DNA of 44,743 bases from Lentisphaerae bacterium GWF2_49_21. Its GTDB lineage: Bacteria > Verrucomicrobiota > Lentisphaeria > Victivallales > GWF2-50-93. The notes under the pieces are model-generated. The model did no database searches. It was not told where the DNA came from and was given only the letters and a program-made list of their open reading frames with translations. Position numbers and translations under genes: made by a program. Below are positions 2,219 through 43,840 of the stretch, in pieces (position 1 is the first letter of the stretch; every line of letters begins with the position of its first letter). The stretch spans positions 42,790 to 87,532 of the forward strand of contig MHBH01000001.1 of the NCBI GenBank assembly GCA_001804805.1, read 5' to 3'.

Positions 2219-3103
2219 TTACCATCCTCCACCCAATTTTAAAGTTATTTGTCTTGAAAGTTCAAGATATGACTCGCCGATGATTTCGCCGAAAAAGACC
2301 CAGAGCAATGTGCCTGCCGCCAGAAACGGTCCGAGAGGGAAGGCGCTCCTGAGCTTCTTCTTCCTGAATACCATGAGGAATATGCCGTATAATGAACCGG
2401 TGAGGGAGCCGAAGAGCAACGTGAAGAAACAGGCTGGCACCCCGATCAGCGCGGCCACGGCACCGATGTATTTGACGTCCCCCCATCCCATCGCTTCCTT
2501 CTTGAAGAGAATTTTGCCGAAAATGGAGACAGCCGCCATAAAAAGTATGCAGACCGCCATGCTGCCGAAAGAAAACATGAAGGAAATAATCCATTCAGGC
2601 ACTATCCATTTCCGGTGCGGGAGCCACAGCTCCGGCCAGAACACGGAGAAGAGAAGTCCTGCAACCATAGCCGAATATGTGGCCTCATTGGGAATTATCC
2701 TGTGCTCGGTATCGACGAAGATCGTCACTATGCACAATGCCACAATGCAGAAATAAGGGACTGCGGCGGATGCCGGCTGTCCCGTCATCATGACCTTCAT
2801 CCATACAAGGAAGAAAAGATATCCGGTCATAAGCTCCACCAGGAAATAACGCGGGCTGATCCCGGTCTTGCACTTCCTGCATTTCCCGCCAAGCGCGAGC
2901 CAGCTGAGCAGCGGGATGTTGTCGTACCACTGAATCAGATAATTGCATTTCGGACAGTGCGAAGGGGGCGACACCAGGGACTCTCCCCTCGGCAGCCTCC
3001 AGATGCAGACATTCAGGAAACTCCCGATGCATGTCCCCAATATGAAGACGAAAATATTCATCATGGGAACCATCGCTTCGGGGATTTGAGATATCTCATG
3101 CAT
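2219..3103 (-). CDS. pilD: Prepilin peptidase (type IV leader peptidase, A24 family)
   Basis: This inner-membrane aspartic protease cleaves leader peptides of type IV prepilins and type II pseudopilins and usually N-methylates the new N-terminus. The 294-residue protein shows the standard order: a first membrane segment with GSFLNVCIWRLPRGES, a cytoplasmic zinc domain with CPKC and CRKC pairs, then several membrane helices. The two catalytic Asp are in DTEHRIIPNEAT and in GWGDVKYIGA (the GxGD motif). It is the only such gene in the window and is a plausible processor for the pseudopilins at 21.0-22.1 kb, although it is about 18 kb away. Its last codons overlap an alternative upstream ATG of the esterase-like gene, so the two are probably co-transcribed. 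Confidence 0.93.
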   Translation of the reverse strand: MHEISQIPEAMVPMMNIFVFILGTCIGSFLNVCIWRLPRGESLVSPPSHCPKCNYLIQWYDNIPLLSWLALGGKCRKCKTGISPRYFLVELMTGYLFFLVWMKVMMTGQPASAAVPYFCIVALCIVTIFVDTEHRIIPNEATYSAMVAGLLFSVFWPELWLPHRKWIVPEWIISFMFSFGSMAVCILFMAAVSIFGKILFKKEAMGWGDVKYIGAVAALIGVPACFFTLLFGSLTGSLYGIFLMVFRKKKLRSAFPLGPFLAAGTLLWVFFGEIIGESYLELSRQITLKLGGGW

Positions 3104-21230: not shown

Positions 21231-21662
21231 TCACATGCATGATACAATTCTTATTCTATCCTTGCTGTTCTGCTTCCCTTTAACTTCAACATTCAGCACT
21301 GCGAGTTTCTCAGAATTATCCTTTGCCTCGACCTCCAGGGAAACAATCATTCCTTCCGGAAGAAGGGCAAGATCCCTCTTGCCGTTTTCATCGACTAAGA
21401 ATATCCTGCTGTTATCGGCCATCAGCTTTTTCTGTCCGGACACAAGGCAGTTCCCCTCCTTTTTCCAATCCGGAGACAAATGTATGATATTCCTGAACTT
21501 GCCGGAAAGGACGAACATCTCCTGATTGCTCAATGATTTCTCGACCGCCTGGGTGCAGAGCTTTGATCCGTCATAGAAGAACTGGAATGCAAGCTCGAAC
21601 ATGACAAGCATTATCGCTATGACTACCAGCATCTCAATCAGACTGTAACAGTTTTTCCTCAT
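21231..21662 (-). CDS. Pseudopilin-like protein (leader NCYSLIEML)
   Basis: The 143-residue protein has a type IV prepilin N-terminus. SLIEMLVVIAIML is the methylation helix with Glu at +5, but the residue before the cleavage site is Cys instead of Gly. The remaining 115 residues are a small, likely globular domain (GKFRNIIHLSPDWKKEGN and LPEGMIVSLEVEAKD). A minor pseudopilin role (GspH/I/J class) is plausible. The preceding 32-bp gap holds the hairpin at 21678-21695. Confidence 0.8.
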   Translation of the reverse strand: MRKNCYSLIEMLVVIAIMLVMFELAFQFFYDGSKLCTQAVEKSLSNQEMFVLSGKFRNIIHLSPDWKKEGNCLVSGQKKLMADNSRIFLVDENGKRDLALLPEGMIVSLEVEAKDNSEKLAVLNVEVKGKQNSKDRIRIVSCM

Positions 21663-21677
21663 ATTTTCCCCAGTATG

Positions 21678-21695
21678 ACAGGCTTTCCAGCCTGT
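21678..21695. repeat. Hairpin ACAGGCT-TTCC-AGCCTGT between two pseudopilin genes
   Basis: Seven-base perfect arms enclose the loop TTCC. It is another member of the variable-arm TTNN hairpin family, and it sits inside the operon. Confidence 0.7.
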
Positions 21696-22069
21696 TATTT
21701 TATTTCTTCAGCAGGCGTCTGCCCTGTTTTAATTTCGATTCTGCCAATCTTCTTCCCATTTTTCCTCTGTATTTCCAGGACTGCCCTGCCATTGCGGATT
21801 TCGCAGCATTTCCTGACATCATCGTCACCTTCAAGTACGCTTCTTCTGAATTCATCTTCAAAAATATCCTTTATCCTGGCGAAATCCGCTTTTTTCTCGA
21901 AGGATATCCTTTCAAGTGAATTGTCGAGGACCTGGAGAGCCCTGCTCTCACGGGTGAAATTCCTGTCCATGACCCTGAGATTATGCGCGGAACTGGAAAA
22001 CAATGCCGCAACCATGGCCAGAAGCCCCATCGCAAATATGAGTTCCATAAGTGTATATTTATTCTTCAT
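21695..22069 (-). CDS. Pseudopilin-like protein (leader NKYTLMELI)
   Basis: The 124-residue protein begins MKNKYTLMELIFAMGLLAMVAAL, a prepilin helix with Glu at +5 and Lys in place of the -1 Gly. The rest is charged and probably alpha/beta. Its ATG overlaps the stop of the GspE-like gene by four bases (ATGA), a translationally coupled junction. Lentisphaerota prepilins often read K-FTLIELL without a Gly, so this fits the lineage. Confidence 0.8.
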   Translation of the reverse strand: MKNKYTLMELIFAMGLLAMVAALFSSSAHNLRVMDRNFTRESRALQVLDNSLERISFEKKADFARIKDIFEDEFRRSVLEGDDDVRKCCEIRNGRAVLEIQRKNGKKIGRIEIKTGQTPAEEIK

Positions 22070-23118
22070 AGCAGATACACATCCTTCTCATATATTATTC
22101 CGGCTTCAGCCATTTTCGCCGCAGCCTGTTTTACATCGGTGTCAGGATATTCCGTGATTTTCCTGCGGAGATCCCTGAGCCCCGGATTGCTGATTATGAA
22201 ATCCTTCCATTCATCATTCGGATTCAGATATGCGGCAACAGGAATCCGCCCTTCCCCATTTTTTTCCTGGACAAGCCTCTGGGCTATGACTCCTGTAATC
22301 GCCGAGGCGACAAGGAACGGTTCAAATCCCTGGTGCAGCATCCGCGCGTATACGGACGGAATATCCCCGGCATGAAACGTTGTAATCACACGGTGCCCGG
22401 TAAGAGCTGCGTCAAGCGCCACCTTGACGACGCTGCTGTCCCTCATCTCGCCGATGACTAGCGTCTTGACATCCTGCCGCAATGCCGCCCTCAGTGCTTC
22501 AGGATAACCCCACCCCTCCCCGCATCTGGTAAGGGAAATCTGTGATATCCCGTCAACTTCGCATTCGACAGGGTCTTCAACTGTAATGATAGAGGCGGGA
22601 TCCTGCGAATTCCGCAGCAGTTCCCGAATCATCGCATAGATTGTCGTTGTCTTCCCGCAGCCGGTGGGGCCTGTCAGCACTATCAGCCCTGAAGCAGGAA
22701 TTAGCATTTTTTGTAATGATGAAAGGACATTGTCGGTAAAATTAAGGTCGACGAGGCATGCGTTGATTCCGCTCCTGTAAAGGACGCGGATAGAAATTCT
22801 TTCGCCATTGGTAGTCGGCATCGCGGCAACACGGAGTTCAGCATCTGCGAAATCCGCAACTCCGCGGATGATTCCGTCCTGGGCTATCTTGGTCCTATAT
22901 GTAAGGAGCCCTGAAATCACTTTTATCCTGTTGACGCACTGGTCCCCGAACTCACGTGGAATCCTCTCATGGTCATGCTGGATCCCATTTATCCTGAACC
23001 TGATGTTATATCCGTCCTTCATGGGCAGCCAATAGATGTCGCTGGCCTTCCGCTTAAGGGCCTCGGAAAAAATCTTGTCGACAAATGGAGGAACTTGATT
23101 GTCTTCTTGTGTTTTCAT
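22066..23118 (-). CDS. GspE/PilB-family assembly ATPase (short form)
   Basis: It is a hexameric cytoplasmic ATPase that drives pseudopilus or pilus assembly. The 350-residue protein has Walker A GPTGCGKTTT around residue 150, the Asp-box Glu in TVEDPVE, Walker B TLVIGEMRD, and the His box TGHRVITTFHAGD. Compared with GspE of type II secretion (about 500 residues) it lacks the N-terminal GspL-binding domain and the tetracysteine zinc loop (the region reads LVQEKNGEGRIPVA). The length fits PilT-like proteins, but the context of GspF and pseudopilins argues for an assembly role. It lies between a GspF-like gene and a pseudopilin gene. Confidence 0.88.
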   Translation of the reverse strand: MKTQEDNQVPPFVDKIFSEALKRKASDIYWLPMKDGYNIRFRINGIQHDHERIPREFGDQCVNRIKVISGLLTYRTKIAQDGIIRGVADFADAELRVAAMPTTNGERISIRVLYRSGINACLVDLNFTDNVLSSLQKMLIPASGLIVLTGPTGCGKTTTIYAMIRELLRNSQDPASIITVEDPVECEVDGISQISLTRCGEGWGYPEALRAALRQDVKTLVIGEMRDSSVVKVALDAALTGHRVITTFHAGDIPSVYARMLHQGFEPFLVASAITGVIAQRLVQEKNGEGRIPVAAYLNPNDEWKDFIISNPGLRDLRRKITEYPDTDVKQAAAKMAEAGIIYEKDVYLL

Positions 23119-23122
23119 ATTT

Positions 23123-24457
23123 TCACCAAAATACCGTTACATAATCAGTAATCCTGAATATCCCAAGCGCAAGCCCGATTATTATTGAACCGAACAGGAT
23201 GACGTTTATCAGGACTGCGACAATCTCAATTATCTGGAGGAATCCCTTGGAAGAAGAGCTTATTTCAAAGCGCACCCATCGCAGGGATGTATCGAAGCCC
23301 TCGCTTAACCTATCCCTCATGACAGCATTCCTGATTATCATATTATGCAATGGATCATATAGCTCCATATCCTCCCAGGCATCAAGCCAGTTCCTGCCAT
23401 TCTCAGCTGACTTCACGAATTTCCCAAGCCTGAATTTTATAAACTGATAACGGCTTGAGGCTATGCTCCATTCAGCGGCTTTTATCACATCGTCACCGGA
23501 AGAAATAAAGGCGGCCATGGATCCGGACAGTTCAACTTGTGCGGCCGCCTTGTAATACCATCCGAAGACAGGCATCCTTATCAGGCATTCTTCCAGTATC
23601 CTTTTAATCAATGGAAGATTTGATATTAAAAGAACGGCACACAGGCCAATAAAGAGGAAAGACAATATCGCATCGTAATTGGCATGCAGGAAATCAGATA
23701 CGCAGAAGACTATCTTGGTCATTTCGGGATAATAAACAGTATTCCCCTCGTAAAGCTCATACAATATCTTCTGGAATTTTGGAACTATGAAAATCATGAG
23801 CCCCGTGGCTATCAGAGACAGGTTCACAAACTGGATTACAGGATATGCAAAGCTTGCCTTGATTTCATTTCTCAGGCCGTGGACAAAGCTTATATTTTCA
23901 GCCAGCTGCGGGAGAATTTCCCTGAGTTTCCTTTCCTTGTCGGCTTTTTGTATCGCAAGAAGCAGATAATCAGGGAAATATCTATGGAGCCTCCTGCTGA
24001 ATGATTCTGAAAGCGAAACTCCGTTTTTCAAATCCGCCGACACCAGCATTAATTGCGAATGGAATGATGGACTCGTGAAAACAATAAAGCTTTTTAACTT
24101 TTTCCTCTCATTTATAAAGAACAGGATAGGAAGAATTATCATGATCGCAATCATTATCATCGTCCATTTGATCATGTCTTCCATATAGATAGAGTTCCTC
24201 ATTAAAACGATCAAAAGCTTGAATATAAAAAAGAGTGCCAGTAAAAATACAGGAAGAAAAAGAAAATATGGACTTTTCCTGACTTTATATTTATCATCAT
24301 CAATTTGAGTCTCATTTCTTCCTTCCCTGCAGAATCCGTCAATCGCTTCATCAAAGGGTATATCGTTCCTGGCCGCAAACGCGAGAGTCTTCATAAAATA
24401 GTCGATGCCAGTATAGAAGTGCTGGCTATCAACATAGTATGGACCGTTCAGATTCAT
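23123..24457 (-). CDS. GspF-like platform protein, divergent type B (copy 2)
   Basis: The 444-residue inner-membrane protein starts TLAFAARNDIPFDEAIDGF, the GspF opening motif. An inserted pair of membrane helices follows (residues about 60-115), then two GspF-type halves. Helix-turn patterns such as LKNGVSLSESFSRRL and AAFISSGDDVIKAAEWS mark the two domains, and hydrophobic helices end it near residue 440. It is longer than a usual GspF (about 400). The nearest relative in the window is the 382-residue copy. The start is 3 bases after the previous gene, with GGTGG upstream. Confidence 0.82.
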   Translation of the reverse strand: MNLNGPYYVDSQHFYTGIDYFMKTLAFAARNDIPFDEAIDGFCREGRNETQIDDDKYKVRKSPYFLFLPVFLLALFFIFKLLIVLMRNSIYMEDMIKWTMIMIAIMIILPILFFINERKKLKSFIVFTSPSFHSQLMLVSADLKNGVSLSESFSRRLHRYFPDYLLLAIQKADKERKLREILPQLAENISFVHGLRNEIKASFAYPVIQFVNLSLIATGLMIFIVPKFQKILYELYEGNTVYYPEMTKIVFCVSDFLHANYDAILSFLFIGLCAVLLISNLPLIKRILEECLIRMPVFGWYYKAAAQVELSGSMAAFISSGDDVIKAAEWSIASSRYQFIKFRLGKFVKSAENGRNWLDAWEDMELYDPLHNMIIRNAVMRDRLSEGFDTSLRWVRFEISSSSKGFLQIIEIVAVLINVILFGSIIIGLALGIFRITDYVTVFW

Positions 24458-24460
24458 TTT

Positions 24461-25510
24461 TCATCCACCAAGCTTGTTTATGATTGCAATCAACGGCGTA
24501 AAGAGCCCTATAATAATACTGCCGACAGCGACGGAAAGTATGATTATCAGGAACGCCTCCCATGCCAATCCCGCCTTATTGATCGCGGCAATGGTTCTTT
24601 CCCGGTACATCTGGGAGAGATTCTTAAGCTCTTCAGACCGTCTGGTTTCAGGCACGTTTTTTACAGTCAGGACTATCAGGTCGGATATTATTTCCTCATT
24701 TTTCAGGCATTCGACAACATCCCTGCCCTCAGCGCATCCTCTTGAAATGTTCTTGAGCGAGGCTGAAAGCTTGGATTCCTCAATAATCTCGGAGATTGCC
24801 TCAAACGCATAGACCATTGAAAGCTTCTGTTCCATGAAGACAGCCCACATCGAGCAGAAACGGGACATCTGCAGGTTTTTGAAAATATTTCCAGAGAATG
24901 GAAGAAATCTTATTATCTTTATAAATGTCTTTTGGGACGCAGGACCTTTATTGGCAAAAAGCCAGATCAAAAAAGCAATTGATGAAAGAAAAAATGCCAG
25001 TATCGCAATCTCATATTTGACCGATAGTGAAGAGAGTGTGACAACTAAATCTGTAAGAGGAGGAAGCTTCTCACCCTCAAGAAGCTCACTGAATATCTGT
25101 GCGAACTGCGGCACTACAAGCCTGAGGATGAGAAAAAACAGCATGAATGAAAATGATATGGTGAACACCGGATACAGCGCAATTCCCTTCACCATCGAAA
25201 CAAGTTGGTGATTCATTCTCGACATATAGGCAATTTCGTTCAATATCTCGGACAAGGTTCCGCTTTTCTCGCCGCTTTCTATCATTCTTACATGGAACGG
25301 CTGGAAGTAATCAGGAAACTGCCCCATGGCCTCCGATAACGGCTGTCCCTTGGAGGTTCCTGCGGAAACGCTGAAGAGGACTTGTTTGAAGTCAGGCTTG
25401 TCAAAGTTGGCGGCAAGCTGGCGGATGCTTTCCGGAAGCGGCAGATTCGATTTCACAAGCAGTGATAGCTGCCTGTAGAAATCCGCGATTTCTGTTTCGT
25501 TGGTGGCCAT
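24461..25510 (-). CDS. GspF-like platform protein, type A (copy 2)
   Basis: The 349-residue protein has the GspF pattern FYRQLSLLVKSNLPLPESIRQLA at the start. VSAGTSKGQPLSEAMGQFP and MIESGEKSGTLSEIL follow in the first domain. Three membrane helices are present, and PQFAQIFSELLEGEKLPPLTDLVV precedes the second. Its sequence pattern closely parallels the protein at 26711-27748 (for example SELLEGEKLPPLT), so the two are paralogs. AGGA precedes the ATG. Confidence 0.88.
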   Translation of the reverse strand: MATNETEIADFYRQLSLLVKSNLPLPESIRQLAANFDKPDFKQVLFSVSAGTSKGQPLSEAMGQFPDYFQPFHVRMIESGEKSGTLSEILNEIAYMSRMNHQLVSMVKGIALYPVFTISFSFMLFFLILRLVVPQFAQIFSELLEGEKLPPLTDLVVTLSSLSVKYEIAILAFFLSSIAFLIWLFANKGPASQKTFIKIIRFLPFSGNIFKNLQMSRFCSMWAVFMEQKLSMVYAFEAISEIIEESKLSASLKNISRGCAEGRDVVECLKNEEIISDLIVLTVKNVPETRRSEELKNLSQMYRERTIAAINKAGLAWEAFLIIILSVAVGSIIIGLFTPLIAIINKLGG

Positions 25511-25540
25511 ACTGTCCTAATGTACCATTGTTAACGTATT

Positions 25541-26689
25541 TTAAAATGCCTCCGCGAGATATCCGATTATTCTGAATATCGAACCCAGCAGGGCTATTGC
25601 CGTTGAAGCGACAATGAGTCCTATGAACAATATTCCCGAGATCTCTATCCACCGGAGCTTTTTCACGGACGACTTCGAAACATCATTTGAGAGCCATACC
25701 AGCATTGTATCAAATCCTTCGGCGGGATTGTTCCTTGCCGCAGAATTAGTCACTATCCAGTCATTTATTGATACGCCAAACCCCATCTCCATCCATGCCA
25801 AAGACCAATCCTTCCCATTTTTTACCGACACTGCGAATTTCAAGAGTTTTTTCCTCATCCATGGCCTTCCAATCGTTGCCGCACTTATTTCCGCAGCCTC
25901 TGCAATGTCTTTTCCTGAAGACAGATATGACGCCATGGATCCGGCAAGTTCAAGCAAGGCGTTCCTTTTAACGCTTCTGTTAAGCAAGGGGATTCTGACA
26001 ATGATTTCCTCGAAAATGATTTTTAAATAAGATCCAAGAGGAATGTAGATTAACATGAATAGAAGAAAAAACATCAGCATAGTAAAGAAGTTTGAGAACA
26101 GCCAGTTTGATACAGAAATGTACCTGTTTAGAAAAACTGGAGTTTCCGTACCCTCCAAAAGCTCAGCGTAAATCTTTTCAAACTTTGGGACAATGAATAT
26201 TGACAAGAATGATGTTATGAAAATAATAACAACAAGTTCAATTGTCGGAAAACTCAGCGCGGAAAATATCCTCATCTTTATATCGGTCACGAAATTAATT
26301 CTTTTGGCAAAGCGTGGCATCATTTCCGCGAGACATCCTTCTTTCTCAGCTTTTTCCACAGCCTCAAGGAAATATGCAGGAAGATAATTTGATAGCCTTT
26401 TCCTCAGGGCCAGATGGAGAGGCGCTCCTTTTTTAATGTCGATAATTGCAAGCTCCAGGGAAGTACTCCACTTTTTCCTGAAAAAATTGCTGAAGTGCGG
26501 CATCAGATCGTCCTTGCCTCGCACCGTTCCGCAGTCCGTAATGGTCGACAGGGCCTCATCAAAGGGAATGTTATGATCTGCGGCCCAGGCTATGGTGCTG
26601 GCAAGAATGCCAGCCTTGGAATATGAAAGCATGCCGTCTGCCGACTCGGCATATTTTCCACTCGTATAAAGTAAATTGTTGCCCATCAT
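25541..26689 (-). CDS. GspF-like platform protein, divergent type B (copy 1)
   Basis: The 382-residue membrane protein opens with STIAWAADHNIPFDEALSTI, similar to the 444-residue copy. It has IKKGAPLHLALRKRLSNYLPAYF, VEKAEKEGCLAEM and PKFEKIYAELLEGTETPVF. A second-domain pattern is LAGSMASYLSSGKDIAEAAEIS. It lacks the inserted helix pair of copy 2. It is translationally close to its neighbours on both sides. Confidence 0.85.
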   Translation of the reverse strand: MMGNNLLYTSGKYAESADGMLSYSKAGILASTIAWAADHNIPFDEALSTITDCGTVRGKDDLMPHFSNFFRKKWSTSLELAIIDIKKGAPLHLALRKRLSNYLPAYFLEAVEKAEKEGCLAEMMPRFAKRINFVTDIKMRIFSALSFPTIELVVIIFITSFLSIFIVPKFEKIYAELLEGTETPVFLNRYISVSNWLFSNFFTMLMFFLLFMLIYIPLGSYLKIIFEEIIVRIPLLNRSVKRNALLELAGSMASYLSSGKDIAEAAEISAATIGRPWMRKKLLKFAVSVKNGKDWSLAWMEMGFGVSINDWIVTNSAARNNPAEGFDTMLVWLSNDVSKSSVKKLRWIEISGILFIGLIVASTAIALLGSIFRIIGYLAEAF

Positions 26690-26710
26690 AACGACTTGTC
26701 CTTAGGTTCC

Positions 26711-27748
26711 TTAATAGATAAAATGGCTGAGTATAGGCAGGAATAATATAAATATGATGGTTCCTACAGCACATATCATCATCATCATGGAAACAAGTTC
26801 CCAGGCAGTGCCCAAGCGCCTGAATCCAAGCGTTGCCCTGTCCTTGAACAGTTCGGCCAGCCTGTCGAGCTCTGAAGAAAGTTCCTTTTCAGGGCTGTGC
26901 TTCAGGGTCAAAGTCAATACTTCAGAGATATCTCCCTCCTTCGAGAGTTCTTCTACAAGGTTGCCACCTTCAGAACATTTGGATGCAATTCTTTTCAACG
27001 CCAGCTCCAGTCTCTTGTTTTCGACAAGCCCGGCTATGACAGACAGGGCTTCCGCTGCAGGTATGTTCTGCTTTATCATCAAGGACCAGAGCGAGCAGAT
27101 CCGCGCCATGGAAAGATTATAGAAAATCACATTTGAAAAAGGGACCGCCTTGATTACTTCCAGGAATATCTTCTGTGAAAAGAGGCTGTTTCCCAGCAGC
27201 CAGACTGAAAAAGCTATGTGCGAAATAAAAATAAAAGCGACAAAATAAACATGATTTCTTGTCAGTTCAGATATCCCCATAATGAACTGGGTCAGAGGCG
27301 GAAGCTTCTCGCCTTCAAGCAGGTCGCTGAAAATAATCGCAAAATGAGGAACGATATAGTACATGAGAAGGAAGAATATGAAAAACGCAAAAGTAGTAGT
27401 GAACAGTGGATATGCCAAAACATCTTTTACCAGGATGGTCAGCTGGCTCTGCAGGTGCGAAACACGCGCAATATCCAGCAGGATGTCGGGGAGAAGTCCG
27501 GATTTTTCCCCCAAGCTGATCATTTTCACGTGCATCGGATGGAAGTAGGAGGGGAATCTTTGCATCGCTTCGGCAAGGGGAACACCTTTTGACGTGTCCT
27601 CGCTTATTTTTTGGAGGATTTCCCGGAATTCCTTATGCCCTGAATTCCTGCCGAGATGACAGAGGGTTTCAGGAAGAGGCATGTTGGATTTTGTGAGGAT
27701 TGATAGTTCCCTGTAGAAGTCTGTAATTTCCTGGCTTCTTGTTTTCAC
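26711..27748 (-). CDS. GspF-like platform protein, type A (copy 1)
   Basis: The 345-residue protein starts with GTG, supported by GAGGAG 9 bases upstream. Key patterns are FYRELSILTKSNMPLPETLCHL, ISEDTSKGVPLAEAMQRFP, ISLGEKSGLLPDI and IFSDLLEGEKLPPLTQF, matching the type A copy at 24461-25510. GspF forms the inner-membrane platform around which the ATPase turns. It starts 31 bases after the macroglobulin gene. Confidence 0.88.
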   Translation of the reverse strand: MKTRSQEITDFYRELSILTKSNMPLPETLCHLGRNSGHKEFREILQKISEDTSKGVPLAEAMQRFPSYFHPMHVKMISLGEKSGLLPDILLDIARVSHLQSQLTILVKDVLAYPLFTTTFAFFIFFLLMYYIVPHFAIIFSDLLEGEKLPPLTQFIMGISELTRNHVYFVAFIFISHIAFSVWLLGNSLFSQKIFLEVIKAVPFSNVIFYNLSMARICSLWSLMIKQNIPAAEALSVIAGLVENKRLELALKRIASKCSEGGNLVEELSKEGDISEVLTLTLKHSPEKELSSELDRLAELFKDRATLGFRRLGTAWELVSMMMMICAVGTIIFILFLPILSHFIY

Positions 27749-27779: not shown

Positions 27780-30700
27780 TCATTGTTCAACTTTTTCAAC
27801 TTCAATAGCGACAGAACCGGTTTCGGAACTGATCGCAGGCTGATAATATTCATAAGCCCGTGAAACCGGAGTCTGCGCCCTTATCGGATATTTCGCCTTC
27901 ATATCAAAGGAAACAACCGCCTGGGAATTGGCTTTGATCTCCCTGAGATAAATTATTGCCTGCCGCCCCCTTATTTCCCATTGTTCAATATCATTTCGGT
28001 CTTTCATGGCCTCCAGCTTGTCAGGAATCACATCAAAACCCGGAGGCACTCCAATGTCCACGAGGACCATATTGGCAGGCATCGCCCCGTTGTTGTCCAC
28101 AGTAGCCCTGCAGTTTATAATATCATTGACCTTCAGGTTATTCTTTTCGTATTCGACATTGATCTTCAGGATCTCCTTGGCGTCTGAAGAGTGCTCCTTT
28201 TGGGGGATATAATACTCAACAACGAGCTGATAATTGTAGTTTTCATCTTTGGGAGAACGTATTTCAACGGAGTTCACTCCTAGCTGCACGGACGCTGCCA
28301 GATCAATCAGCTGGCATATGTCATAGTTCTCCCCGGTAATGCCTATTTTATTTACCGCTTTCCCGTTTACAGATATCGTTATCTCATAGGGCTTGTCGTA
28401 TTTCTTCTGTTTCTTCCCCGCTATAATCGCACGCAGGCACTGGATTGTCGACTGGGTGGTCCCCCAGTTTCCATTCTTATCCTTTTTACTGATCAGCCAT
28501 GACAGCACCTTGGAAGCCGTAGCCGTATGCTGTCCTGCCCTGAACATTGCCTGAAGTGCAAGGGCGGTTGCTTCAGTATCATAATAAATGTTCTTTTTCC
28601 CCTTGATGTTCCACATTACGAAATCCCCCTCCTCGCTCCTCGATTCATACAGCTTTTCTATCATATTATCGGCCTCCGGCCTTCTTGCAGCGGCAAAGGC
28701 ATTTGCACAGTACGCAAGCGTCCTTGCATCCTTGATCTCATCGAGATGTTTAAGGATATAATTGAACGATGGCTCCAGCTCAGAATTATCGAGTCCGGAT
28801 TCGGCGAGCGACATCAGGATATATGACGTAACTTCAATATCTGTATTCAGCCCCAGGGCCCATCTTTCATTCTTCCAGGAACCGTCCGCCTCGCGTTTGT
28901 AGATAAGCCATTTCCTTGTCCTCTCAATGACCTTTAAATCAACGCTCTCATAGACTTTCCGCATATCACAGAATTCCATCAGGCCGTAGGCGGACAATAC
29001 TGTATTAGCCGGAGATCTTCCGAACCATTCAAATCCACCGTTTGAGATCTCGAAAGAAAGAAGGCGCTGATATCCGGTATTTATCATGCCCAGGGCCTTC
29101 ATCTGTATCTCGGGTGATATCTGACCGGTCTTCTTCATGTACTGCAGAGCAAGTACATTAGGATAAGTTATCGATGAAGTCTGCTCAAAACATCCAGACG
29201 GCATCTTCAGTATTGATTCCATCCCATCGACAATCTGGCTGAAAACTCCCGGATATATCCTCATATATGCCCTGGCCGAACCTTCAACGGCGTTTCCGGG
29301 TATTTCAAACTTGTCCATCGTCTTTCCATCGACAGGAGAACCATTGATGACTATTTCAATCCTCTCCCCGGCAGGTTCAACCTCGATATTCCTTTCAATC
29401 GCGTCAGAGCTGTTCTTTCCAAAAGCCTTGACCGTTAGGGAATGCTTCCCAGATTTTACGGCTTCAACGGTGAAATATATGCTCTTCACCTGGCCTGGCA
29501 GAATGACAATTTCCTTTTTGAGCGAATCGGAAATCCTGAACGAACCATTGTCCACAAGCTCAAGCTTCACGGTCTGGGATTCATTCAGATAATTGTAGAC
29601 AGTAACAGGAATGCTGACAATATCGTGCTGAGTGAGTTTCACCGGGAAATCAATGTCGACAAAGAAATCCTTGAATACTGTGATATTATCCTCGGATGAA
29701 CCCAGTCTTCCGTTCTTATCAACGGCACCGGTCGACATCCGCCAGGTCGTAATTGAATCAGCCAGCGGGATCTCCACTGATGCCTTTCCATTCTCATCGG
29801 TCACAATTTCAGGAATCCATAGCAGGGTCTCCGGAAAATAGCGGCGGATACGGGCGCTGCCAACAGCCTTGTCGACATATTTTTCGTCCTGATCAATGAA
29901 AGGCTTCACCTCCTGCGTTGGATTTCCATAACCACCGCTCCATCCATCACCTCCACCGAGTTTATTCGTTATGCAAATCAATGGCATGAACATACTGATA
30001 ACAGTGATTGGAACAAGTATCAGTATCAACCCTATTGGACCATAGAAGAAGAATGCCATGAATATGAAAAGGGCGGGAGTCTCTCCCATTTTCCTTCCAA
30101 GCCCCCTTGCAGGCACCTGGCGGACGACGGGAGTTGCAAGCATTGATCCGCCTGTAAATGTAGTCACCCCGCAGGCATAGACGGAATATAAAGTTGCCAT
30201 TATGGCCAAGACAAGCAGGATATAAATCTCCAATAAATGCCTATTGACCGGCAGGCATACGGTAAGGAATGCAACCAATGCCGTTATAAGAACATAAAGA
30301 GGGTAGGCATAGAATGTCGGAAACAGCACCTTGTGTGAATTGTCCAGTTTCCAGGACAGCCTGAAAAACTTCTCAAGAGCTTTCCTGTATTTTAAAAATG
30401 AAATCAGGGCAGGAATGAACGTAATAACAAACAAAGTGAATAGCCAATAGAACAGGTAGCCATCCGCTATTTTCAACCTGAGACATAGAAGAACGATGCA
30501 GCAGGCAACCATGGGAACGCATGCAATCCATTTCCAGGTAATTGATGACAAGGAGCTCTCCCATTCATACCTGTCGCATTTTATGAATTCATATGTATTC
30601 TCCGCAGGAACCAAGGTCCTCTTCAAACCAAGAAGCAATGCCGGAAGGATCATCAGGAAGAAAACACCGATAAGCGCGAATATTATTCCTGCACTTAGCC

Positions 30701-32972
30701 TTTCCTGGTATTTATTCTTCTTTTCATCCAGCGCCTGTTTCCTTTTATCATAGCTTTCACCTGCAGTAAACTCGGCCTTGTTTATTTTCATATCGTTCGA
30801 AAGAAGCATGCCTGCCGACTGCTGATAGCTTTTTTCATTCCCCGCCGTTTCAGGGAATATCCGCGGAACAGCCTTTATCTGGTATTTCGGCTTGAGAAGC
30901 TCTTCCTGAAGGAGGAAATACATCTTTTCAAAGCCGGGATGCATCTGGCAAAGTGAAAAAACGGCCTCATCTACAATGGAAAGGCTCAACGCCGCAACAA
31001 CCGGCTTGCCGTTCTTGTCTTCAACTGCTAACTTCGCAGCGCAATTTCCTCCGGGCAGATATTTATCCTTATCCAGCTGAGTGGTTATCTTAAGGCTCTT
31101 CGGATCGTTGACCTGGATAAGCCTCAGATCGGAAACTATCTCGCCTCCGGGAAGTATCCTATATGCCTGGACCTGGAGCGTGCCGACAAGCTTGTCATCC
31201 ATGTCTATGAAACATTCGGCTTCCTTGTTTTTCACCTCGATTGTCTTCATCAGGATGCAGACACCGTTGCGGACGACATCGAGAAAGAATATGCCTGTTT
31301 CGACCGAGGTCATTATATTTATCTTTGCAGTATCGCCGACCTTGTAGACAGCCTTGTCCGTACGTAGAATGAAGTTTTCAGGCAAGGAATCTATCGAGTA
31401 TGATTTCTTTCCGGCTTGCTCGCGGTTGCCGGCACTCTTGACAGTGTATGCCAAACTCCAGCATGGAACACCAGAACTGGTGTTGCTTCTTCTGCTGAAG
31501 ATGGGAAAACCAGGGGGATTTTCATCTGCTTTGCCAGGAATCGCATCATTTATGTGGGGCGTAGCTGCGAACATCGCAATACCATTGTCATCTGTGGAAA
31601 CAGCACCAATTTTTTCAATATTGACCTCGGTCTTGACAGGCGTGCCGTCGGGATAGCTTGTAAAGACATAGAAATTAGTCTTTATTGGCAGAATCCTTCC
31701 ATTTTCCGGGAAGAATTCAACCTTGAAAGTGTCCTTGGAGATAACAGTCTTTTTTAAAAGCGACTGGCTGTGCCCTCCGGAATCCGTGGCTGAAACATCC
31801 AGCTTCACAAAAGCATCTCCGCTTTCAAGATGGCTGCCTGTAAAATATTCCTTCAAGGGAATGCTGAATTCGTAAACTCCTCCGCTGTCGCTCTTTCCCT
31901 TGACTGATGCAAACTCGTTGAATTTATCAGTGAAATCAGATGCCTTCACAGTAATATCCGCGCCTGAAACCGGTTTTCCGAACATATATGAAAGGGCTAC
32001 TGTTCCCCTGACGATCTCTCCTGGCTTGTAGAAGCACTGATCTGTCTTCACGGAAATGGAAAACTTAGGCAGGACATATTTCTTCACTTCGACAGTCTTC
32101 TCCGAAACGGTGTTCCCCATGGAAACCTTTATGCTGTAATCGCCGCTGTTCACCTGCTCTGCAAGAAGGAATGAAGTTGCGGCTATGCCGAAATCAGAAG
32201 TCTTCAATTCCTTCCTGTAGACCTTGTTTCCTTTCGGATCAAAGATTTCCATGTTGACATTCCTGCCGGCTGCCGGCTTTATCGAAGATGTCTCCATCGT
32301 CAGCGTTCTTATGTTCATAGTCTGTCCAGGCTGATAGACAGGCTTGTCCGTCGACAGCATGCACTTATAGGTACGCCTGACTGAAATCTGGCGTTCGGCG
32401 TTGACTTTCTGGCGGGTGTTCAGTACATATGCCTCAAGCTTGTAGTCCCCTTCGCTTATCTCAGGGAACACCTTCTCGACCACGGCTATCCCATTATTGT
32501 CGGTAACAGCCTCAAATGTCTCAAGGATTTTTCCGTTGCAGTCCTTCAACAAAATTTCGAGATCTTTGTTTTTGATCGCCGTCGAAGTCTGTCCATCGCG
32601 TATGAACACCCTGAAGGAGAGCTTCTGATCAGGTGAAAAGTTCCTGTGGCTGTAAATGAAAATTTCGGAAGGATCGGCCTTTGCGCTCAATATGTGGAAG
32701 GAAAGAGCAGTAGTCGCCAGTATCGCAGCAGAAAGAATTATTGCCGCAGCCTTCTGGAAAGTCCTGTTGAAAAAAAGCCCCCAGAAATCCCTGACATCTC
32801 CCATTGTCACAGGGGAAGGAACTTTATCCCTTATTGACCTCAGCACCTTTTTGACAAAAGCTTCATCGGGATTTACTCCTGCACGTACAACTTCCCTGAT
32901 CATTCCGTCCATTGCCGGTTTATCACCGGCATTACAGGGTATTTCCTCTTTTTTCATCTCTTCCTTATTCAT
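27780..32972 (-). CDS. Membrane-anchored alpha-2-macroglobulin-like protein with polytopic insert
   Basis: Alpha-2-macroglobulins trap proteases and bind them covalently through a thioester. The ATG at 32972 overlaps the sigma-factor stop and gives 1730 residues. Visible order: a charged cytoplasmic N-terminus (1-73) and one membrane helix (74-95). Macroglobulin beta-domains follow, with repeats such as CMLSTDKPVYQPGQTMNIR and FYKPGEIVRGTVALSYMFGKP. A helix-rich insert with about six membrane segments lies at about 755-1003. The C-terminal macroglobulin part includes SITTWRMSTGAVDKNGRLG and the thioester site Gly-Cys1261-Phe-Glu-Gln1264, where CGEQ or CLEQ is usual. An all-helical thioester domain and a receptor-type end domain follow. 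An even number of helices would put both large parts in the periplasm. The short N-terminus next to an ECF sigma factor could act as an anti-sigma region; this is inference. No pbpC partner is present. Confidence 0.88.
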   Translation of the reverse strand: MNKEEMKKEEIPCNAGDKPAMDGMIREVVRAGVNPDEAFVKKVLRSIRDKVPSPVTMGDVRDFWGLFFNRTFQKAAAIILSAAILATTALSFHILSAKADPSEIFIYSHRNFSPDQKLSFRVFIRDGQTSTAIKNKDLEILLKDCNGKILETFEAVTDNNGIAVVEKVFPEISEGDYKLEAYVLNTRQKVNAERQISVRRTYKCMLSTDKPVYQPGQTMNIRTLTMETSSIKPAAGRNVNMEIFDPKGNKVYRKELKTSDFGIAATSFLLAEQVNSGDYSIKVSMGNTVSEKTVEVKKYVLPKFSISVKTDQCFYKPGEIVRGTVALSYMFGKPVSGADITVKASDFTDKFNEFASVKGKSDSGGVYEFSIPLKEYFTGSHLESGDAFVKLDVSATDSGGHSQSLLKKTVISKDTFKVEFFPENGRILPIKTNFYVFTSYPDGTPVKTEVNIEKIGAVSTDDNGIAMFAATPHINDAIPGKADENPPGFPIFSRRSNTSSGVPCWSLAYTVKSAGNREQAGKKSYSIDSLPENFILRTDKAVYKVGDTAKINIMTSVETGIFFLDVVRNGVCILMKTIEVKNKEAECFIDMDDKLVGTLQVQAYRILPGGEIVSDLRLIQVNDPKSLKITTQLDKDKYLPGGNCAAKLAVEDKNGKPVVAALSLSIVDEAVFSLCQMHPGFEKMYFLLQEELLKPKYQIKAVPRIFPETAGNEKSYQQSAGMLLSNDMKINKAEFTAGESYDKRKQALDEKKNKYQERLSAGIIFALIGVFFLMILPALLLGLKRTLVPAENTYEFIKCDRYEWESSLSSITWKWIACVPMVACCIVLLCLRLKIADGYLFYWLFTLFVITFIPALISFLKYRKALEKFFRLSWKLDNSHKVLFPTFYAYPLYVLITALVAFLTVCLPVNRHLLEIYILLVLAIMATLYSVYACGVTTFTGGSMLATPVVRQVPARGLGRKMGETPALFIFMAFFFYGPIGLILILVPITVISMFMPLICITNKLGGGDGWSGGYGNPTQEVKPFIDQDEKYVDKAVGSARIRRYFPETLLWIPEIVTDENGKASVEIPLADSITTWRMSTGAVDKNGRLGSSEDNITVFKDFFVDIDFPVKLTQHDIVSIPVTVYNYLNESQTVKLELVDNGSFRISDSLKKEIVILPGQVKSIYFTVEAVKSGKHSLTVKAFGKNSSDAIERNIEVEPAGERIEIVINGSPVDGKTMDKFEIPGNAVEGSARAYMRIYPGVFSQIVDGMESILKMPSGCFEQTSSITYPNVLALQYMKKTGQISPEIQMKALGMINTGYQRLLSFEISNGGFEWFGRSPANTVLSAYGLMEFCDMRKVYESVDLKVIERTRKWLIYKREADGSWKNERWALGLNTDIEVTSYILMSLAESGLDNSELEPSFNYILKHLDEIKDARTLAYCANAFAAARRPEADNMIEKLYESRSEEGDFVMWNIKGKKNIYYDTEATALALQAMFRAGQHTATASKVLSWLISKKDKNGNWGTTQSTIQCLRAIIAGKKQKKYDKPYEITISVNGKAVNKIGITGENYDICQLIDLAASVQLGVNSVEIRSPKDENYNYQLVVEYYIPQKEHSSDAKEILKINVEYEKNNLKVNDIINCRATVDNNGAMPANMVLVDIGVPPGFDVIPDKLEAMKDRNDIEQWEIRGRQAIIYLREIKANSQAVVSFDMKAKYPIRAQTPVSRAYEYYQPAISSETGSVAIEVEKVEQ

Positions 32973-33531
32973 AGTCCGTACCGCTTTTGTAGTCTGTTCC
33001 TGAAATGGCGCTGTTGATGCAGGTTTCAAGCTCAGTCCTTGCGCGCTGAAGTCTTTTTCTGACCGTGGCCTCGTTGCAATCTATTTTTTCCGCCACTTCG
33101 CTGCCACTCAACCTGTTAAAATAGAAATATCTTAGAGGAACTCTCAATATTTCGGGAAGTTTCCTTATGCATTCGGCGAGAAAATGAAAGATGTCTGAAT
33201 CCTCCTTGTCGGAAGCATCCCAGAGGAGATGGGATTCCTCAAGGGAATCCAGCTGGCTTTCGTCAAGGTATATTTCTTTCCTGGTGCGGAGATATTCAAG
33301 GTGCTTGTTTCTTATTATTCCCCTCAACCAGGCTGGAAAACTTTTCGCAGTGTCAAATGTTTCTATCTTGAGGAAAGCCGTTACAAACGCATCCTGGACC
33401 AGATCTTCCGCCGTACTCTCGTCCCTTACCAGGCACAAGGCATAGGCGATAAGCCTCTTATGGTGTTCGCGGACAAGGATCTCAAAAGCCTTGCTGTCAG
33501 GAATGTTTTTGTTTGTAATCCTAGTATCCAT
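32965..33531 (-). CDS. ECF-type RNA polymerase sigma factor
   Basis: The 188-residue protein has region 2 (AYALCLVRDESTAEDLVQDAF...FPAWLRGIIRN) and region 4 (LPEILRVPLRYFYFNRLSGSEVAEKIDCNEATVRKRLQRAR). It lacks regions 1 and 3, as in ECF sigma factors. The last residues are a duplicated SGTDYK/SGTDYE. AGGGG precedes the ATG. Its final codons overlap the ATG of the macroglobulin gene by 8 bases, so the two are translationally coupled. This is typical for a sigma and its membrane regulator. It is the first gene of the 12.5 kb operon. Confidence 0.92.
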   Translation of the reverse strand: MDTRITNKNIPDSKAFEILVREHHKRLIAYALCLVRDESTAEDLVQDAFVTAFLKIETFDTAKSFPAWLRGIIRNKHLEYLRTRKEIYLDESQLDSLEESHLLWDASDKEDSDIFHFLAECIRKLPEILRVPLRYFYFNRLSGSEVAEKIDCNEATVRKRLQRARTELETCINSAISGTDYKSGTDYE

Positions 33532-41905: not shown

Positions 41906-43840
41906 TTATTCATCCACAGGATCCACGGGGCCATTCCTCTCAGGCTTGTCGCCGATCTCCATGTCCTCCTCGAAATGCGCCGCCTCACCGGAATAGATGC
42001 AGTAAGGATAAGTCTTGTCCAGGTTCTCCTTGAGCGGCTTGTCGCTATCTGTACAATATAAGTTCACAATAAAAGGCCTGTGCACCGATGCTTTCTTCCA
42101 GTCGTCGGAATAAATCACACATGTCCTGTCTCGTGCAATTTCGCTGATCATTGAAAAGCTTGCCAGGGCATAATCAATCCTTTCATAATCGTCAGTTGCG
42201 GAATTCCAGCAAGTCCAGCTGGTGTTCATAGGATCAAGCGGCCTGATGTCGAAGAGCCTCTTTTCAATCCCGCTCCTCCTGTTGTAAAGCTCCTTCATGG
42301 GCGATTTTCCGCAGGTGTCGTTGAGATTTCCGACAACTAATATGTTCGAACCGGGTTCGGCCTTTGATATGTCGTTCACAAGGTATCTGAGCTGGCGGGC
42401 CTCGTATCGGCGCATGTCTGTCTGGTTATACTCCGGATGCTGCTGCCTGTCCTTTAAATCAGCGGCGAGCAGATGGAACTTATACCCTTTGACATTGAAA
42501 ACAGCGTGTGCAAACCCTCTGGAGACCGGCAGTTCCTTGTCCTCGATCTTATATTTGACATCAGTCATGGCTTCGAATTTTTCAGGTTTGATCTTTGCGA
42601 ACACCGCAATATGGGATTCCCTGTCGGCACCTTCGACCATCTCCTTGAAGACGCATCCATTGAGCCTGTCCATGATTTCATCCATGGCCTTGGCGTCCTT
42701 GATCCCGGTAAAGACAAATATGTCGGCCTTGTTCCTGGCGACCTGCTCGAATATCTCCTTTTTCCTCTCGGCCGGAAGCTCAATGGAATAGCCACCTGTG
42801 TCGAAGAACAGGACAGGAAGCGTTTCGGGATTTCCGTTGGCAGCCAAGTTCTTCTTCTTATCTGTTGTCTTATAGGAGGCGCATACGCCATCAGGGAAAT
42901 CCTTGTCTATTGTTTCTTTTCCCAGAGGCCTGGCATTTTCAGTACTTATGGTCACCAGGACAGGCCTGTGGTCCGAAGCGAACATCCAGTATTCCGGCAA
43001 ATGCACCACCTGTGTCTTTTCAAATTTTATTTCCGGCAGGAGGGACGAGGAGGCCATGGCATAATCAATACGTCCGTAAATGTCCTCGCTGTGCCACCAG
43101 TGGGTCCACGCCATTCCGTTGCGGTCGACAGGCCTCAGATCATAAAGCCTGTTCTCAGGGGATTTTTCTGGGGCGCGGAGGGTGATCATGGGATCCGAAG
43201 AATAGACGTCGTTGAAATCTCCGACGACCAGGATGTTCGCCTCAGGCTCGTTTTCCTGGATCTGGTTGACAAGATATCTGAGGAGCCTGGCCTCGTAGCG
43301 CCTCATGTCGGTCTGGATGTATCGCGGATGAGGGAGCCTCGACTTGAGATGCGCCCCTACCACATGCAGCCTGTAATTGTTTTCAAACTCGAAGACTGCG
43401 TGGAGGAACCCCCTCTGGACGAACACCTTCTCCGGATATCCATCCTGTCTGTCCTTGGGCTTGATCTTGTAATATAGATTTTCCTTCTTCTCGACCTTCA
43501 CCGGCCTGAACTTGGATATGAGCCCGATATGCCTGGACTCGTCTTCGCCCGTCATCTCATCTGAAAAAACATAATCCTTGCAGCCTGCCTTCTTCAGGTT
43601 CTCCATCAGGTCCGCGAGCGACTTCTCCCCGCCGAGCTCGACAACGAAGAGGATGTCGGGATTGCTGTTCTTAATCATGCCCATCAGGGCCTTCTTGGAG
43701 TCGTCGCCCTTTGGTTTTTCGGTCTCAGGAACGACGAAGTAGTTGTGGACGTTGTAGGCCATTACGGATATTTCTTTCGCAGACGAAAGAAATATAAATG
43801 AAAACCAAACCAACAGAACTGTCATGATGCGACTGGTCAT
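41906..43840 (-). CDS. Secreted tandem endonuclease/exonuclease/phosphatase protein, second domain degenerate
   Basis: The 644-residue protein has a signal peptide (TVLLVWFSFIFLSSAKE) and two successive EEP domains. The first (about 24-310) is complete: MAYNVHN, a VVELGG acidic motif, VGAHLKS, VVGDFNDV, GRIDYA and SDHRPV. The second (about 340-620) keeps the same backbone phrases, such as TDMRRYEAR and LVNDI. However, the motifs read FFDTGGY, VFTGIKD, LAADLKD, VVGNLNDT, ERIDYA and SVHRPF, so most metal and catalytic residues are lost. The substrate could be nucleic acid, phospholipid or a phosphoester outside the cell. No partner gene is adjacent. Confidence 0.88.
   Translation of the reverse strand: MTSRIMTVLLVWFSFIFLSSAKEISVMAYNVHNYFVVPETEKPKGDDSKKALMGMIKNSNPDILFVVELGGEKSLADLMENLKKAGCKDYVFSDEMTGEDESRHIGLISKFRPVKVEKKENLYYKIKPKDRQDGYPEKVFVQRGFLHAVFEFENNYRLHVVGAHLKSRLPHPRYIQTDMRRYEARLLRYLVNQIQENEPEANILVVGDFNDVYSSDPMITLRAPEKSPENRLYDLRPVDRNGMAWTHWWHSEDIYGRIDYAMASSSLLPEIKFEKTQVVHLPEYWMFASDHRPVLVTISTENARPLGKETIDKDFPDGVCASYKTTDKKKNLAANGNPETLPVLFFDTGGYSIELPAERKKEIFEQVARNKADIFVFTGIKDAKAMDEIMDRLNGCVFKEMVEGADRESHIAVFAKIKPEKFEAMTDVKYKIEDKELPVSRGFAHAVFNVKGYKFHLLAADLKDRQQHPEYNQTDMRRYEARQLRYLVNDISKAEPGSNILVVGNLNDTCGKSPMKELYNRRSGIEKRLFDIRPLDPMNTSWTCWNSATDDYERIDYALASFSMISEIARDRTCVIYSDDWKKASVHRPFIVNLYCTDSDKPLKENLDKTYPYCIYSGEAAHFEEDMEIGDKPERNGPVDPVDE

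Follow-up and report, generated by a model that had tools for sequence, protein, structure and literature searches.

Why should a gene cluster with a single assembly ATPase encode four platform proteins? The question is raised by a stretch of 44,743 nucleotides from Lentisphaerae bacterium GWF2_49_21 (assembly GCA_001804805.1, contig MHBH01000001.1, forward-strand positions 42,790 to 87,532; the whole stretch is called here the window), in which four open reading frames (ORFs) for relatives of the GspF/PilC platform proteins follow one another as A1, B1, A2 and B2, two of a type A and two of a type B. As detailed below, the unusual unit is the conserved A+B pair; the pairing of full-length platform proteins in a minimal type IV filament cassette is a real and conserved oddity. 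The A-B-A-B order was seen only in the window and in a relative of the same genus among the loci that we examined, and its two pairs are not sisters.

The initial annotation, made from the letters and their ORFs alone, had described four GspF paralogs in this order, and all four ORFs were found, on the minus strand. Each protein shows two stretches matching the Pfam family T2SSF above its cut-off (A1 128.9 bits, B1 53.2, A2 108.8 and B2 55.9), including the B type, for which the domain had been expected, and structure comparison matched the fold of the GspF/PilC platform family. The AlphaFold2 models used were monomers built from shallow alignments (11 and 12 rows), with a mean predicted local distance difference test (pLDDT) score of 82 for A2 and, at modest confidence, of 68 for B2, in which residues 1-15, 47-70 and 108-129 are of low confidence. 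Pairwise identity is 43% for A1-A2, 35% for B1-B2 and 19-24% between A and B. The motif SxLLEGEKLPPLT ascribed to the type A copies is present in both (SDLLEGEKLPPLT in A1, SELLEGEKLPPLT in A2), and of the opening NIPFDEA ascribed to type B, IPFDEA is common to both copies and the leading N belongs to B1 only, B2 reading DIPFDEA. Ratios of nonsynonymous to synonymous substitution (dN/dS) against the orthologues of the same-genus genome (L051) are 0.035 for A1, 0.19 for B1, 0.10 for A2 and 0.24 for B2, hence purifying selection acts on all four platform genes.

The cassette recurs in related genomes. Its ATPase is separated from ordinary ATPases by a clean gap in score (at least 395 bits vs at most 258 bits), and by this gap it occurs in 15 of 137 genomes of the order and in 21 of 197 of the class; in a sample of the phylum it was present in 14 of the 387 genomes drawn, one of these 14 lying outside the class. 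The ATPase of the window is 97% identical to that of the metagenome-assembled genome (MAG) Lentisphaerae bacterium GWF2_50_93, and no cassette ATPase was found in two other genomes of the same genus (G002, 90% complete, and G003, 77% complete). We examined 25 loci, namely the window, 21 of the 23 loci of ATPase relatives (the remaining two, from Pseudomonas and with distant ATPases, were set aside) and three from another search. Of the 25, 22 hold both A and B, and in related Lentisphaerota genomes the usual order is A-B-ATPase-pilin-pilin; L062, with B only, and L072, with neither, are interrupted by contig ends. Among open-licence PubMed Central texts, no title was found that deals with this cassette or with a bacterial system having two full-length platform paralogues.

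Some loci depart from the usual arrangement. The ATPase gene lies on the opposite strand in L065, L066 and L069, the first two being different cassettes of one MAG, Lentisphaerae bacterium RIFOXYC12_FULL_60_16. An A-A-B cassette occurs in L071 (6389-8817), where the two close A copies are sisters (100/100*), a local duplication of A alone. Extra hydrophobic stretches are found in some B proteins, inside the first cytoplasmic domain (Cyto1) in B2 of the window and between the two domains in L060, L063 and L075. A 742-residue frame joining B and the ATPase in L074 (8837-11065) was considered as evidence of 1:1 coupling and not used, since its last B helix appears to be out of frame, likely by a frameshift; for the trees it was split into a B part and an ATPase part.

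Phylogenetic analysis included 67 proteins, with 25 rows of A, 25 of B and 17 ordinary GspF/PilC proteins, in an unrooted tree. Each type forms one old clade (A 100/99*, B 100/100*), separate from the other and from the 17 ordinary proteins. Within them A1 is sister to L061_A (100/99*) and B1 to L061_B/L062_B (100/98*), and A2 groups with the A proteins of its own family in L060, L063 and L075 (91/84, not starred). The initial annotation had suggested that A-B-A-B arose by duplication of a pair and that a tree with GspF/PilC references should be built; in that tree neither A1 and A2 nor B1 and B2 are sisters. If the pair had been duplicated locally and in tandem within the window's own lineage, this would agree with the order and spacing of the genes and with A1-A2 and B1-B2 being the most similar members within the window, and sisterhood of B1 and B2 was not rejected in a B-only set without the long branches L067_B, L074_B and L148_B (approximately unbiased (AU) test, p=0.092). 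Against this, constraining A1 and A2 together gave AU p=0.0053 and B1 and B2 together p=0.0056, with a weaker result in the smaller A-only set (p=0.044), and the joint constraint on A and B joined end to end gave p=8e-7; the joined tree was made without L067, L074, L148, L062 (which has no A) and L078 (a near copy of L077), and with one of the two A copies of L071. Since A1-B1 is sister to the L061 pair and not to A2-B2, and given the joint value, duplication in situ is rejected under the models used, and we regard it as hardly credible.

The remainder of the cassette has a different affinity. The window ATPase groups with those of L060, L063 and L075 (96/94*), and its grouping with L061 and L062 is rejected (AU p=0.03). 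In addition, L061 carries, 13 bases upstream of its A gene, an 821-residue relative of the macroglobulin-like protein encoded next to A1 in the window; it aligns through the membrane region and ends before the thioester part. The simplest account would be that a macroglobulin-A-B block moved between two lineages and now stands in front of a native cassette, the direction of movement being part of the same inference.

The roles of the two types may be read against those of better known platforms. In PulF, according to PMC10790770, three two-domain subunits provide six cytoplasmic domains for six ATPase subunits, and the channel is lined by a Tyr-Pro pair of the first transmembrane segment (TMS1) and a Glu-Pro pair of the third (TMS3). 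The TMS1 Tyr-Pro is kept in 25/25 A proteins and 17/17 canonical GspF/PilC proteins; among the 25 B proteins Tyr is present in 13 and Pro in 19 (Phe-Pro in B1 and Tyr-Pro in B2 of the window). At TMS3, Glu is found in 9/25 A, 17/25 B and 15/17 canonical proteins, and Pro in 0/25, 8/25 and 16/17, respectively; all four platform proteins of the window have the Glu without the Pro and therefore lack the Glu-Pro pair of the family.

The two types are under opposite constraint, A conserving Cyto1 and B conserving the second cytoplasmic domain (Cyto2). This and the distance test below used 18 cassettes (the window, L059, L062, L074 and L078 were left out, and L072 and L079 gave no A or B), and 10 of the 17 ordinary proteins entered the domain comparison. 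Mean identity is 0.40 in Cyto1 vs 0.30 in Cyto2 for A, and 0.30 vs 0.36 for B, with Cyto1/Cyto2 ratios of 1.34-1.37 and 0.83-0.84, respectively. Cyto1 is the more conserved domain of A in 147 of 153 cassette pairs and Cyto2 that of B in 133 of 153, and among disjoint pairs the same direction was observed in 8/9 for each type. By column bootstrap the A-to-B ratio of ratios is 1.64 (1.31-2.03); taken singly, the interval of A (1.13-1.67) excludes 1 and that of B (0.66-1.06) includes it. B has invariant Cyto2 residues of its own, and is therefore not merely a half-decayed copy. Furthermore, the tree distances of A and B are correlated beyond what they share with the ATPase (partial r 0.50, permutation p 0.0008), which fits a partnership of the two proteins.

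Most likely, on our analysis, the two types join in a single hetero-oligomeric platform similar to that of TadB/TadC. A heteromeric platform had been raised in the initial annotation as an unusual possibility for the window, against the premise that known systems use one GspF/PilC; it stands as the best reading, yet for the whole family of loci and with two T2SSF types of one clade each, and the premise must be qualified. Two platform proteins are used by Tad pili and by archaeal Epd pili, and PMC6668835 describes these as single-domain halves derived from gene fission, with TadC similar to the N-terminal half of a complete platform and TadB to its C-terminal half; the Tad single-domain proteins have been modelled as three heterodimers (PMC11300603 and PMC12019362). 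The cassette resembles TadB/TadC (CpaG/CpaH) and EpdJ/EpdK in having two homologous platform proteins and one ATPase, and the conservation of Cyto1 in A and Cyto2 in B recalls the N-like and C-like halves (PMC6668835). In contrast to the Tad proteins, with one T2SSF domain each and an origin by fission, A and B have two domains each and are full-length paralogues; the paired platform was most likely made by duplication, not fission.

Two other readings of the pair were considered. A and B might form separate homo-oligomeric platforms that alternate on one ATPase, for instance for pilin addition and removal, as has been proposed for the two Tad platform proteins (PMC4371748). The presence of one ATPase with two platform types per cassette, each retaining the two domains as well as the membrane helices that a full platform has, agrees with such alternation; however, opposite domain constraint and partial coevolution fit mixed assembly better, and with TMS3 Pro in none of 25 A proteins and TMS1 Tyr missing from 12 of 25 B proteins, neither looks like a complete canonical channel, which makes this reading improbable. 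Still less probable, in our judgement, is that A alone is the platform and B a regulatory or targeting partner that gained membrane hairpins. A is indeed nearer to canonical GspF/PilC (Pfam scores of 129 and 109 bits vs 53 and 56), B evolves faster (mean tree distance 3.1 vs 2.2) and the extra hydrophobic stretches of B2 and of the L060, L063 and L075 B proteins would suit such a partner; but B retains the two-domain fold, exceeds A in Cyto2 identity, and adjoins A in 22/22 loci holding A.

We return to mixed assembly and propose an overall explanation, which we consider moderately probable: a minimal motor with an obligate A/B platform, whose pair 1 would have come from the cassette of another lineage. 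The cluster would encode a motor, minimal in its parts, for type IV filament assembly in Lentisphaerota, with one hexameric ATPase driving an inner-membrane platform of two obligate partners, both full-length two-domain GspF/PilC relatives. In A the strongest constraint falls on Cyto1 and the TMS1 Tyr-Pro, and B retains a Cyto2 surface of its own and, in most cases, the acidic residue of TMS3; A/B heterodimers would be arranged around the motor like TadC and TadB. The two pseudopilins may start or cap a short filament, a major pseudopilin and the prepilin peptidase being supplied from elsewhere in the genome. In the window's genus a second pair, A1-B1, would have been placed with its macroglobulin gene before the native A2-B2-ATPase-pilins, so that one motor may serve two platform pairs, exchangeable or mixed.

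Several observations weigh against this explanation. The structural models are of monomers and not of a complex, and two full-length types at 3:3 would face the six ATPase subunits with as many as 12 cytoplasmic domains, so the arithmetic of Tad is not directly transferable. The Glu of a Cyto2 motif that we read as GExxG (the name is our own) is present in 17/17 ordinary proteins and in 0/25 A and 0/25 B, and its loss in both types means that the motifs of one ancestor were not cleanly split between them. The correlation of A and B distances also fits linked inheritance, and L079, with a broken ATPase relative, has neither A nor B. As for the origin of pair 1, to the B-only result given above is added the support of 42/61 for pair 2 with its own family in the joined tree, and the transfer has an alternative: the pair may have been duplicated early, ahead of the divergence of the families, with one of the two pairs then lost from nearly all lineages. 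Such hidden paralogy could yield the same tree shape, and the A and B of L061 do stand apart from those of the lineages with which its ATPase groups. It would, however, require many parallel losses, with two A-B pairs being found only in the window and its same-genus relative, and the macroglobulin gene common to the window and L061 points to movement of a block; we consider the old duplication unlikely, if less so than the readings of A and B weighed above.

It is poorly understood how the platform transmits the motion of the ATPase to the insertion of pilins, in part since homotrimers mask the roles of their domains; a natural split into two constrained partners, available in single- and double-pair versions, would allow each half to be mutated separately. 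For the question of why two platform proteins are used in Tad and Epd, the cassette provides an additional, bacterial case, and it suggests that platform pairs may move between cassettes as units. Tentatively, and with more doubt than confidence, the pair could mean that a type IV filament platform of two proteins arose a second time and independently, by duplication and then division of labour (Cyto1 to A, Cyto2 to B), an arrangement converging with the fission of Tad and extended in the window's genus to four platform proteins of two lineages on one motor.

The lineage of the cassette genomes is taken as diderm, and the Com pilus is a monoderm system. The cluster belongs to the type IV filament superfamily, as it has a Walker-motif ATPase beside a platform gene and prepilin-like N-termini. 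Like the cassette, Com (ComGA/ComGB) makes do with one ATPase, a platform and small pilins, and PilMNO and a secretin are missing from its cluster (PMC10191384); it has one platform protein and five pilins, where the window has two pilins and four platform proteins, the latter of two types. With type II secretion (GspE/GspF, or PulE/PulF) the cassette shares protein families and fold. GspF is the best NCBIfam match of A1, A2 and B2; against the 424 bits required by the GspF equivalog TIGR02120, however, the four proteins score 147.5 (A1), 62.3 (B1), 154.6 (A2) and 76.2 (B2). TMS3 Glu-Pro and Cyto2 GExxG are altered as well, and of 14 secretin matches in the host genome none lies on the contig that bears the window (C1). 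GspC, GspL and GspM were absent from the seven cassette proteins scanned with NCBIfam, a scan that included no profile search aimed at them.

The genes lie in one co-directional run, in the order ECF (extracytoplasmic function) sigma factor, macroglobulin-like protein, A1, B1, A2, B2, a short T2SSE ATPase and two pseudopilins (Table 1). Neighbouring genes are 32 bases or less apart or overlap slightly, and all nine are under purifying selection, with dN/dS of 0.035-0.24 against same-genus orthologues.

Table 1. Platform genes of the window and associated features (window coordinates; aa, amino acids; TM, transmembrane).
Feature	Position	Strand	Remarks
ECF sigma factor	32965..33531	minus	first gene of the co-directional run
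alpha-2-macroglobulin-like protein	27780..33029	minus	1749 aa, multi-TM region within the protein; adjoins A1 on its upstream side
gspF type A copy 1 (A1)	26711..27748	minus	345 aa, GTG start; T2SSF matched in two stretches; L061_A is its sister
gspF type B copy 1 (B1)	25541..26689	minus	382 aa; T2SSF matched in two stretches; L061_B/L062_B are its sister group
gspF type A copy 2 (A2)	24461..25510	minus	349 aa; two T2SSF stretches; groups with own family (L060/L063/L075 A)
gspF type B copy 2 (B2)	23123..24457	minus	444 aa; two T2SSF stretches; extra hydrophobic hairpin, residues about 61-119, inside Cyto1
T2SSE-family ATPase	22066..23118	minus	350 aa, Walker motifs kept; sole ATPase of the cluster
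pseudopilin 1	21695..22069	minus	124 aa; weak ComGE/GspI-like match below curated cut-offs; position conserved in relatives
pseudopilin 2	21231..21662	minus	143 aa; weak GspH-like match below curated cut-offs; position conserved in relatives
prepilin peptidase (Peptidase_A24)	2219..3103	minus	about 18 kb from the cluster; one of two in the genome

The Peptidase_A24 of the window is likely a shared processing enzyme. In the host genome (G000, 5.9 Mb) at least 150 ORFs resemble prepilins and score above the TIGR02532 cut-off, a lower bound obtained with 150 of 272 candidates scored, against two prepilin peptidases. The genome also holds a single full-length platform gene at each of four further loci (C52, C61, C77 and C80), and pairs of single-domain platform genes of Tad-like appearance in C20 and C32. 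The Gly at position -1 is absent from 36 of 42 cassette pseudopilins of the window and its relatives, and the Glu at +5 is kept; this is an automatic reading with a few errors, at least pilin 2 of L073 and of L075 being misread and 2 of 22 pilin-1 rows having no call. A genome-wide trait was considered and set aside, as 21 of the 29 best-scoring host prepilins have Gly or Ala there, a sample of top-scoring loci and hence biased toward Gly; the lack of Gly belongs more to the cassette pilins than to the whole genome.

The macroglobulin-like protein carries the thioester motif GCFEQ, and its multi-TM region was matched in 2 of 197 genomes of the class at E 1e-5, both of the window's genus. A GspF-like tail ("PLICITNKLGG") proposed in this protein gave no match with the A profile. 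The ECF sigma factor gene overlaps the beginning of the macroglobulin gene, and the N-terminal part of the macroglobulin-like protein could serve as the anti-sigma factor. In L060, an ECF-like gene and another gene lie upstream of A.

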